The notes under the pieces were generated by a model that had not been told where the DNA came from, made no database searches, and saw only the letters and a list, made by a program, of their open reading frames with translations. The translations under genes were made by a program, and so were the position numbers. A stretch of 64,000 nucleotides of DNA from Candidatus Zixiibacteriota bacterium (GTDB taxonomy: Bacteria; Zixibacteria; MSB-5A5; GN15; FEB-12). The stretch covers positions 86,094-150,093 of the forward strand of contig JAJRQO010000034.1 in assembly GCA_024280215.1 (NCBI GenBank), given 5' to 3'. Each line of letters begins with the position of its first letter. Positions within the stretch are counted from its first letter, which is position 1. Of the stretch, positions 40,009 to 46,233 are shown piece after piece.

Positions 40009-40326
40009 GTGCTGATTTTAACAAGGAAGTTAGGTGAATCGATTAATATCGGAGAAGATATTAAAATCTCGGTATTAGGGATTCATGGAAGACAAGTAAG
40101 AATCGGAATTGATGCTCCGATGAATGTAGTAGTACACCGCGAAGAAATTTATGTTAAGATTCAAGAAGAGAACCGCAAAGCATCAAGTTCTATTTCTAAA
40201 GATTTAAAAGGTATGGTTGACCTTATAAAAAGTAAGATTAAAGGTGAAGAAATCAAACCACCTGCTATCGATTATAAGGACAAGGTGAATAAAAAAGATT
40301 CATCTCAACGAAAACCAAACAATTAA
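40009..40326 (+). CDS. csrA: carbon storage regulator CsrA
   Basis: [51 protein letters not shown] start. Confidence 0.97.
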
Positions 40327-42274: not shown

Positions 42275-42751
42275 ATGATTGTACAAAGTTTACGATTAGG
42301 TGACATTGAAGTCTCTGACGACAAAATTATAACTATGGAAAGACCTGTATTAGGTTTTGAAAAGTTTAAAAAGTTTTGTCTTATTGAAGTTGATGAACTC
42401 AAACCATTTTTATGGTTACAATCGATTGATGAACCAGAAATTTCATTTTTGGTAGTCAATCCTCGGTTGTTCATAACAGATTATAAAATCGAAATCAATT
42501 CAAAAGAAATTGCTGAATTGAAAATCGATGATGTTACATCTGTTGAAACGTATGTTGTTGTTACTCTGGCAGAAATTCCAGAAGATATCACTGCCAATAT
42601 GCAAGGTCCGATTTTAATCAATACAGAAAATAATCTCGGCAAACAACTTGTATTAGTCAATACTGACTACAATGTAAAGTACCATTTTATGAAGTACATA
42701 AAACCAAGTGAAGATGTAACCAAAAAAGAAGCAGTTGTAACGACGGTCTAA
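42275..42751 (+). CDS. fliW: flagellar assembly factor FliW
   Basis: GFEKFKKFCLIEVDELKPFLWLQSIDEPEISFLVVNP. Confidence 0.93.
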   Translation: MIVQSLRLGDIEVSDDKIITMERPVLGFEKFKKFCLIEVDELKPFLWLQSIDEPEISFLVVNPRLFITDYKIEINSKEIAELKIDDVTSVETYVVVTLAEIPEDITANMQGPILINTENNLGKQLVLVNTDYNVKYHFMKYIKPSEDVTKKEAVVTTV

Positions 42752-43818: not shown

Positions 43819-43845
43819 TAAAGATGTTCAAAATTTTGTCGATTA
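43819..43845 (+). promoter_or_regulatory. putative sigma28 promoter TAAAGATG-N11-GTCGATTA
   Basis: Partial match to TAAAGTTT-N11-GCCGATAA upstream of flagellin. Confidence 0.5.
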
Positions 43846-44010
43846 AATATGTATGAAAATAGAAGTTTCAATAAATATAATCCTACTGTTAACTCAGGGA
43901 AAGGGTACAACAAATAAGACAGACTAAGGAAATTGGATGATTCTGGAGGTCTTTAAACAACACATTGAAGTGTTTTTGTGTATGAAATTTATAAACTTAA
44001 ATAAGTGAAC

Positions 44011-44026
44011 AGGGTAAGGACACCCT
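44011..44026 (+). promoter_or_regulatory. putative CsrA-binding hairpin 1 in flagellin leader
   Basis: AGGGT-AAGGAC-ACCCT, GGA in hexaloop. Confidence 0.65.
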
Positions 44027-44031
44027 AAAAA

Positions 44032-44048
44032 ATATCCAAGGAGGATAT
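44032..44048 (+). promoter_or_regulatory. putative CsrA-binding hairpin 2 enclosing the flagellin Shine-Dalgarno
   Basis: ATATCC-AAGGA-GGATAT, overlaps SD AAGGAGG. Confidence 0.65.
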
Positions 44049-44052
44049 ACAC

Positions 44053-46233
44053 ATGGCACTAAGCATAAATCACAACATGGCTGCAATGAATGCACAAAGA
44101 AACTTGTTGAACACAAACGAAGAATTAAACAAATCAATGCAACGTTTGTCTTCAGGTTTTAGAATTAACCAAGGTTCTGACGATCCAGCTGGATTAGTTA
44201 TTTCAGAACAGTTCCGTGCTCAAATTGCTGGCCTAAACTCAGCAATTGGTAACTCAGAAGGTTCTATCTCAATGGTTCAAACTGCTGAGGGTGCAATTAC
44301 TGAAATTAACAATCTCTTAATCTCTATGAGAGAATTAGCAATTCACGCTGCAAACGAAGGCTTCAATGATTCTGACCAGCTCGCTGCTGATCAAGCTGAA
44401 ATTGCCAATGCGATTACTACTATTGATCGTATTGCTGCCAATACTCAATTTGGTACAAAAAAATTGCTCGATGGTTCTAAAGAAAACATCGCAACAATTA
44501 CTTCAGCTGGTACTTCTGGATTAGATGTCAATGCTTCATACTTATCCACAGGTACTCACTCTGTAACAGCTACAAAAACTGCTGATCCATCAGCTACATT
44601 AAATACAGACTCTTTAGGTCTTTCTTTAGCTAATAATGATGGTGATCCATATAACCTTTCTGAAGCTGTTCATAATGTTGATGTTATTCAAGCTTCTGAC
44701 GTTGCTTCCAGAACAACTGATTCTATTGATTTAACAGATGCTTTTGGTAATAACTTAGAATTAGCTGCTGCTGGTTCAGCCGCAACTTTAGCATCTGCTG
44801 CTGTTGTTGGTACTGCTGTCGCAGCAAACGTTGGTGATTACACATTTTCTTTTAATTATCAGGAAAATGGCGAATCTCCAACAGGTAACCAAGAAGTTAC
44901 TATTGCTGTTGCAATTGGTGATACTACTTCATCAATCGCTACAAAATTGAATACTGCTATTAACTTGAATGCTGACTTACAGGGTAAGATTACAGCTTCT
45001 GGTGCTGATGGTGCTGCTTTAGATATCACAGCAACTAACCAAGGTGCTCAATATTCTGTTAGTACTGAAGCTTCTACTACAACAGCTACTACATCATTAC
45101 TTTCTTTTACAGCTGGTTCTGACCGTGGTGCTTCTGTAAACGTCTTGAATATGACAGCTAACACAGCTGCTAACGCATCTGTTACTTCTGCTGTTACTAT
45201 TGGTGCTGCAACATATTCCGATATGTCAACATTAACAGCTGCTTTCAATACAGCTTTAGACACTGCCTTTGGTGATGTTGACGCTGTAGCTGGAACTCAG
45301 GATGTTTTTGCTGAAGTTACTAACACAAATCAAATCAATATTCATACAAGAGATGAAGGCTCAAGCTATTCATTACAAATTAATGAGCTAAACTCTAATA
45401 CAAATAATGCTCGTAACGTATTAGGTCTTTCTACTTTTGATTCATCTGCTAATACAGGTGTTGATGCATTAGTTTCTTTCAACAACTATACTAACACTAT
45501 TGATGATGTAAAATATGGTACAGCTGGTGAAGTTACTTTGAAAAACAAAGCTGATGATGACATTACTCAAGGTACTGTTTTAATGACAACACAAACAGCT
45601 CAAAGTGGTGGAATTGAAATTGGTAACTTATTGCTTAATGCAAAAGCTGCTAAATTTGACGTCCGTTTAGACGGTGGACCTGCTTCATCTGTTACAGCTG
45701 GTGTTGACACAGTTATCTTTAATGCTGATCGTTCAGAATCAATGAATATTGCCTACGGATTAACCTCCCAAGGTGGTACTGAAACAATCAACAATACTGA
45801 CCAATCATTAGTATTCCAAATCGGTGCTAACGTTGGTCAAACAGCAAAAATCGGTCTCAGAAACATGTCTGCTTCTTCATTAGGTAATGGCTTATCTGAC
45901 AATGGTAACTTATTCCGTTCACTTGCTGATATTGATGTAACATCTGTTCAAGGTGCTCAAGATGCACAGTCAATTATTGATGCTGCTATTAACGAAGTTT
46001 CCACTACTCGTGGTACTCTTGGTTCATTCCAAAAGAATACTTTGGAATCTAACTTAAGAAACCTTCGTATTGCTGCTCAAAACTTGACCGCTTCTGAAGC
46101 TCAAATCCGTGATACTGATATGGCTTCTGAAATGTCCAATTTCACGAAGTACCAGATTCTATCTCAAGCAGGTACATCTATGCTTGCTCAAGCGAATCAG
46201 GTTCCACAGTCTATCTTGTCACTATTTAGATAG
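44053..46233 (+). CDS. fliC: flagellin (large, 726 aa)
   Basis: N-terminal MALSINHNMAAMNAQRNLLNTNEELNKSMQRLSSGFRIN and C-terminal SMLAQANQVPQSILSLFR; Ala/Thr/Ser-rich centre. Confidence 0.97.
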   Translation: MALSINHNMAAMNAQRNLLNTNEELNKSMQRLSSGFRINQGSDDPAGLVISEQFRAQIAGLNSAIGNSEGSISMVQTAEGAITEINNLLISMRELAIHAANEGFNDSDQLAADQAEIANAITTIDRIAANTQFGTKKLLDGSKENIATITSAGTSGLDVNASYLSTGTHSVTATKTADPSATLNTDSLGLSLANNDGDPYNLSEAVHNVDVIQASDVASRTTDSIDLTDAFGNNLELAAAGSAATLASAAVVGTAVAANVGDYTFSFNYQENGESPTGNQEVTIAVAIGDTTSSIATKLNTAINLNADLQGKITASGADGAALDITATNQGAQYSVSTEASTTTATTSLLSFTAGSDRGASVNVLNMTANTAANASVTSAVTIGAATYSDMSTLTAAFNTALDTAFGDVDAVAGTQDVFAEVTNTNQINIHTRDEGSSYSLQINELNSNTNNARNVLGLSTFDSSANTGVDALVSFNNYTNTIDDVKYGTAGEVTLKNKADDDITQGTVLMTTQTAQSGGIEIGNLLLNAKAAKFDVRLDGGPASSVTAGVDTVIFNADRSESMNIAYGLTSQGGTETINNTDQSLVFQIGANVGQTAKIGLRNMSASSLGNGLSDNGNLFRSLADIDVTSVQGAQDAQSIIDAAINEVSTTRGTLGSFQKNTLESNLRNLRIAAQNLTASEAQIRDTDMASEMSNFTKYQILSQAGTSMLAQANQVPQSILSLFR

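Follow-up and report, generated by a model that had tools for sequence, protein, structure and literature searches.

Flagellin leaders under the control of CsrA and FliW are already known. In Bacillus subtilis CsrA represses hag and FliW antagonises CsrA through the CsrA C-terminal extension, and two accounts of the system describe the CsrA sites BS1 and BS2, one of which covers the Shine-Dalgarno sequence (SD), and no long-range helix at the start codon (PMC7652899 and PMC8523840, citing Yakhnin 2007). The flaA leader of Campylobacter jejuni contains two adjacent GGA hairpins with a GGA spacing of 21 nt (PMC4894983), and is like the leader analysed here in having the second hairpin over the ribosome site, a sigma28 promoter, csrA and fliW, and compensatory changes in the stems (PMC4894983). 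Outside the flagellins, the Escherichia coli glgC, cstA and pgaA leaders each hold several GGA sites, one of them over the SD (PMC7652899), and E. coli ymdA has CsrA sites together with an RNA structure in which the ribosome site is hidden (Renda et al., 2020, PMC7492729).

The leader described here was found in a 64 kb stretch of DNA (the window) from Candidatus Zixiibacteriota, whose host genome comprises 3.03 Mb. It is a variant of the known flagellin leader in which a start-codon helix, termed P0, is predicted to lie in the same junction as the two GGA hairpins. Whereas the flaA leader is 45 nt long and is probably bound by one CsrA dimer, that of the window extends over about 200 nt and has more GGA sites in addition to P0; with hag it shares two putative CsrA sites, one over the SD, but its CsrA is longer (105 aa). 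The ymdA leader differs in being activated by CsrA and in having a hairpin that hides the SD only (PMC7492729), while the structure in the window is predicted and conserved, and glgC, cstA and pgaA are non-flagellin genes without FliW and without a helix closing the start codon. An Rfam search of the leader returned no match to any described RNA family, and a start-codon helix joined to CsrA hairpins and itself built on a CsrA site was absent from Rfam and from the open-licence literature searched, and may be new. To our knowledge no other flagellin leader has its start codon clamped by a long-range helix. With a probability of roughly 0.7, and on the comparative evidence given below, we read the leader as a sigma28-transcribed flagellin leader that would serve as a CsrA/FliW translational switch closed by RNA structure, including P0.

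Flagellin was searched in 98 relatives and in 80 genomes of the order, the leaders were extracted, and about 85 orthologous leaders, all from the class of the window, were compared. The closest flagellins in the public collection belonged to metagenome-assembled genomes of Candidatus Zixiibacteriota (80 and 79% identity). The gene order of the locus is flgI, flgJ, flgN-like, flgK, csrA, flgL, fliW, a TPR protein gene, flagellin, fliD and fliS, where csrA, fliW, TPR, flagellin, fliD and fliS were named from Pfam and the remainder from reading the translations. The Pfam matches bear out the earlier placement of csrA and fliW in the flagellin locus by an inspection of the sequence alone (hereafter the sequence-only reading). 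Residues 2-75 of the window CsrA, which retains the RNA-binding R44, align with CsrA in the FliW-CsrA crystal structure 5DMB, and the window FliW aligns with chain A of the same structure. Among the 98 relatives csrA was found in 91 and fliW in 86, the absences being mostly incomplete genomes. The CsrA tail of the window is charged and long, and the relatives mostly have csrA frames of about 105-130 codons, which exceeds the usual CsrA length. The features of the leader and of the associated genes are listed in Table 1.

Table 1. Positions of the leader elements and associated genes in the window (RNA or DNA letters as read on the plus strand).
Feature	Position	Strand	Basis
csrA (105 aa from a GTG start, R44 retained, with a long C-terminal tail)	40009..40326	+	Pfam, E 4e-24
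fliW (158 aa)	42275..42751	+	Pfam, E 1.6e-38
sigma28 (FliA)-type promoter, TAAA-N15-GTCGATTA	43819..43845	+	direct reading and relatives
Flagellin mRNA leader, about 200 nt	43846..44052	+	reading, promoter in relatives; no Rfam match
Site A, unstructured GGA at the distal end (TCAGGGAAAGGG), reading GGAGG in most relatives	43894..43905	+	GGA positional profile
Site B, hairpin with GGA (43935-43937) in the loop and an AGAC/GTCT outer stem	43921..43952	+	leader comparison
Site C relic, ACACAUUGA	43960..43968	+	comparison; relatives have ACAUnGGA
P0 5' strand, AGUGUU (43969-43974) and UGUGU (43977-43981)	43969..43981	+	prediction, alignment, RNAalifold
H1, AGGGU[AAGGAC]ACCCU, CsrA-type ANGGAN hexaloop	44011..44026	+	reading, alignment, RNAalifold
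H2, AUAUCC[AAGGA]GGAUAU, encloses the SD	44032..44048	+	reading, arm-swap test, alignment
P0 3' strand, ACACA (44049-44053) and GGCACU (44055-44060); covers start codon and codons 2-3	44049..44060	+	prediction, alignment, RNAalifold, codon usage
Major flagellin gene (726 aa)	44053..46233	+	Pfam Flagellin_N, Flagellin_C

The sigma28-like promoter had been proposed from the window alone with coordinates that proved exact, and the element recurred in 64 of 73 orthologous leaders at a median position of -226, where shuffled sequences would be expected to yield 1.2 and an upstream control region yielded 0 of 72. Because of this promoter position the leader is about 200 nt long across the relatives, in agreement with the length given by the sequence-only reading. 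The folding energy of the whole leader was rejected as evidence, since the 240-nt leader gave a z-score of +0.48 and only the proximal domain (43959-44070) folded better than dinucleotide shuffles (z -2.30, 8/200). The raw GGA count was likewise weak evidence, with 5.8 motifs per leader as against 4.9 after dinucleotide shuffling, and GGA borne in loops gave the clearer signal (1.9 per leader vs 0.8 in shuffles).

The two proximal GGA-loop hairpins, H1 and H2, lie exactly where they had been placed, and direct reading confirmed both the 22-nt spacing of their GGA motifs (starting at 44018 and 44040) and the position of the SD in the second loop (AAGGAGG, 44038-44044, 8 nt from the ATG at 44053). 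Using a criterion of at least 5 Watson-Crick bp and a loop of 5-7, 15 GGA-loop hairpins were counted on the plus strand of the window and 4 on the minus strand, and H1 and H2 were the sole pair on either strand that was 12-40 nt apart; the observation is far above chance. Conservation was assessed in an alignment of 67 leader ends, from which three leaders of family f3 without GGA in H1 were excluded. In this alignment 73.7% of the H1 cells were paired, as compared to 26.7-55.1% in slid registers, double changes occurred at all six pairs, and the covariation score was 0.357 vs 0.240 in shuffled alignments (0/500). The H1 loop conformed to ANGGAN in most aligned rows and contained GGU in three close relatives of one genus. 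In H2 the sequence TCAAGGAGGA was almost invariant across the aligned leaders, and its stem reached 4.27 bp within species vs 3.59 bp when arms were swapped between species (0/2000). The distance between the GGA of H1 and that of the SD was 19-25 nt in 78 of 84 leaders, with a median of 22 nt, and the spacing in the window falls inside the range of 10-63 nt that one CsrA dimer can bridge (review, PMC7652899). The sequence-only reading had named the absence of both hairpins from orthologous leaders as its refutation and stem covariation as a check; H1 and the SD hairpin were kept throughout the class, the former with compensatory changes and the latter with complementarity above permutation. 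We have high confidence in H1 and H2 as putative CsrA sites. An H1-like hairpin with GGA in its loop was also seen some 20 nt ahead of the SD in flagellin leaders from Actinobacteria, Sporosarcina and an uncultured Acetatifactor, which suggests that the proximal module is very widespread.

Further GGA sites were distinguished upstream. Site A is the weakest of the sites and was recognised from a peak of the GGA positional profile near -160 to -140; an upstream open reading frame following its GGAGG was considered and dropped, since no conserved start codon follows the GGAGG. The additional GGA motifs that had been pointed out at about 43927-43947 are real and constitute the hairpin of site B, which is weak in the window and much clearer in relatives (e.g., CGGTA-ATTGGATA-TACCG in G002). 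This hairpin preceded site C by 31-53 nt in most leaders of family f1, the family of the window, and its stems were unrelated between genera (CGGTA/TACCG, GGTTATC/GATAACT, TCGGTCAT/ATGACCGA), although tests of individual leaders were only moderate (14 of 43 with p<=0.05). Apart from the SD and H1, no part of the leader was as well conserved as site C (ACAUnGGAAGUGAC, about -80 to -97). In families outside the order the site takes the form of a simple GGA hairpin (e.g., GACC-AUGGA-GGUC), and in family f1 its own hairpin has only about 3 bp. Since the relatives have ACAUnGGA, the GGA of site C was lost in the window and in two congeners, where it now reads UGA.

The helix P0 is built on the complementarity between GAAGUGAC, which forms the 3' half of site C, and G-UCA-CUU-C, which comprises the last base of the AUG and codons 2-4. 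RNAalifold, applied unguided to the MAFFT alignment alone, returned P0 together with H1 and H2, and 92.2% of the P0 cells were paired, while slid registers of the whole structure gave 32-50%. The predicted probability of the P0 core averaged 0.91 in f1 and exceeded 0.5 in 40 of 43 leaders; in the window itself the core was weaker, with 0.62 in a 143-nt context and 0.86 in 133 nt. At P>0.7, the first nine coding bases were predicted to pair with partners over 40 nt upstream in 86% of f1 leaders vs 11% of 46 control open reading frames of the window, the value of the window's own leader on this measure being 0.58. The best leader/start duplex scored a mean of 19.9 in f1 and 21.2 in family f4, as compared to about 13 for shuffled leaders, and nothing above background was obtained in f2, f3 and other classes. 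P0 was missing in G024 and G018 and marginal in G020 and G009. A covariance model of P0-H1-H2 gave one match in each of 77 among 132 genomes of the phylum, situated at the start of the major flagellin wherever the place of the flagellin was known. When P0 was sought in f2, f3, other classes, Bacilli, Lachnospiraceae and Actinobacteria it was not conserved; single high P0 values were noted for leaders of Cellulomonas and Isoptericola. As shown by comparison of the leaders, P0 in the family of the window joins the start codon and codons 2-4 to an element about 85 nt upstream, and P0, H1 and H2 form one predicted junction that would occlude both the SD and the AUG.

Covariation and codon usage were examined at the paired coding positions. 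Position 4 of the reading frame was paired with its partner base in 41 of 43 f1 leaders vs 30.0 expected (0/1000 permutations): this leader partner of the first base of codon 2 was A where the codon was UCA (G in G040, still pairing) and U or C where it was GCA, the pair being broken in G025 and G024 carrying a non-pairing U. On the flagellin tree four independent changes of codon 2 were placed, three accompanied by a change in the leader, one without and none opposite, and the corresponding sign test was underpowered, as all three informative pairs agreed and 0.05 was unreachable. One genome omitted from the tree due to a truncated reading frame (G008) also agrees, and G018 is doubtful, having an indel in the element. 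For the upper part of P0 between SD and AUG (UGUGU/ACACA in the window) complementarity was 9.85 within species vs 8.63 between species (0/1000). Ser2 was encoded by TCA in 35 of 35 f1 flagellins, vs a 15% share of TCA among the other serine codons of these genes, and Leu3 by CTT in 34 of 42 vs 14% expected. This constraint is not wholly due to P0, because f2, which lacks P0, also uses TCA-CTT. The Ala codons 10, 11 and 14 in f1 were GCG in 37-54% of cases vs 15-16% elsewhere in the gene, which again points to constraint at the RNA level or on the initiation region. We consider it very probable that P0 forms and is selected.

A start-codon helix of different construction was recovered in family f4, where the pairing strand is GUGACAUC, directly 5' of the GGA of site C, while the f1 strand lies 3' of the same GGA. 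The f4 helix has 8-10 bp, was paired in 90.8% of cells and recovered by RNAalifold, and in G074 shows a single compensatory change, from C-G to U-A, immediately before the AUG. The flagellin tree places f4 with f2 and other families, apart from f1, so that two origins of the start-codon helix are likely and a single origin with later rearrangement is less so.

The CsrA/FliW switch reading is well supported by comparison, namely by the compensations in H1, the GGA spacing, the sigma28-like promoters and the near-universal csrA and fliW, from which we infer CsrA binding. Of the hag-type architecture put forward in the sequence-only reading, the hairpins, their spacing and the presence of csrA and fliW stand; it was incomplete with regard to two further conserved GGA sites and P0. 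In the proposed mechanism, a single CsrA dimer would span H1 and H2 and hold the closed state, with which P0 would be compatible, pre-organising H1 and H2 for binding. Sites B and C, and possibly A, may recruit a second dimer or help to titrate CsrA. Upon export of flagellin, FliW would be freed and bind the CsrA tail, CsrA would be removed and ribosomes could open the site. By analogy with the known systems it is predicted, with good though lesser confidence than for the sites themselves, that CsrA represses and FliW relieves, and we lean slightly towards P0 acting jointly with CsrA as a repressive clamp. Freeing the GGAs of H1 and H2 was predicted to require 1.4 kcal/mol with P0 staying at 0.96, and opening the entire ribosome site 13.9 kcal/mol; simple de-repression by FliW does not easily accommodate this modelled opening cost of about 14 kcal/mol in the absence of CsrA. 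It also appears to count against a closed switch that f3 keeps csrA and fliW yet has no GGA in H1.

Activation by CsrA from the distal side would turn P0 into a default OFF state, in which binding at site C, in the families with its GGA intact, frees the start codon and binding at H1/H2 represses, the leader being a two-way switch. In both families P0 takes one arm of the site-C hairpin, the 3' arm in f1 and the 5' arm in f4, so that CsrA at site C and P0 would compete; freeing the site-C GGA was predicted to require 4.0 kcal/mol and a single-stranded GGA to lower P0 from 0.95 to 0.69, and there is a precedent in E. coli ymdA, where CsrA melts the hairpin sequestering the SD (PMC7492729). However, P0 mostly survives the freeing of this GGA, the site-C hairpin of f1 is short, and the genus of the window has lost the site-C GGA yet retains P0, and we regard such activation as unlikely. 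A distinctly unlikely elaboration is that a cis-antisense element within the CsrA site closes the start codon and arose twice in Zixibacteria from opposite hairpin arms, with CsrA acting in both directions; if true, distal CsrA would open P0 and proximal CsrA would block the SD, so that flagellin synthesis would respond to CsrA in a band-pass manner set by FliW.

It could be argued instead that this is an ordinary two-site leader of the hag/flaA kind and that P0 is a functionless by-product of constraint on site C and the first codons, given that the combination of H1 and SD is common in other phyla without P0 and that f2, f3 and other classes lacking P0 still keep CsrA and FliW. The covariation at codon 2, the complementarity of upper P0 above permutation, the codon constraint and the presence of differently built start-codon helices in two lineages make this improbable. 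Very improbable is a non-CsrA purpose of the structure, with P0 as an intrinsic regulator (temperature, ribosome stand-by or RNase protection) and incidental GGA loops, for although P0 was kept in the window's genus despite the lost site-C GGA and opening the ribosome site is costly, H1 holds its GGA in an ANGGAN hexaloop while the stem sequence varies, as is the signature of a CsrA site, and csrA and fliW lie in the same locus.

Read as a CsrA/FliW switch closed by RNA structure, the leader would extend the CsrA-FliW-flagellin circuit of Bacillus, Campylobacter and Clostridioides to an uncultured phylum by phylogenetic evidence, and it indicates that flagellin leaders can be controlled at a second level, through a start-codon helix that shares one junction with the CsrA hairpins. 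The hairpin that probably gave rise to P0 is still visible in sister families, and the leader offers an example in which joint action of RNA structure and CsrA can be tested.

Several minor observations were made in the course of the comparison. The f3 leaders (G055, G058, G064) appear to be rewired: the GGA is gone from H1, which reads UGACU-AGCG-AGUCA in G055 and G058, and upstream there is a perfect AACA-UGGA-UGUU hairpin and a possible long CUCGC/GCGAG stem, csrA being kept in two and fliW in all three of these genomes. A short second flagellin-like gene (about 260-300 aa) was present elsewhere in nearly every genome, at G000:C6:417-1157 in that of the window. Several of these short genes have sigma54-like GGCACG-N-TGC elements upstream, and their leaders, read by eye, showed no GGA hairpin pair and no P0-like element. 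Single in-frame stops (TAA, TAG) interrupt the otherwise full-length major flagellins G008:C169:2654-4819 and G043:C1:303888-306047, and may be assembly errors or real. Finally, the leader of a diverged flagellin in G037 (538 aa; G037:C267:3750-4060) carries GGGCAAGGAUGCCC ahead of the SD, and this paralogue thus also has the H1-SD module.
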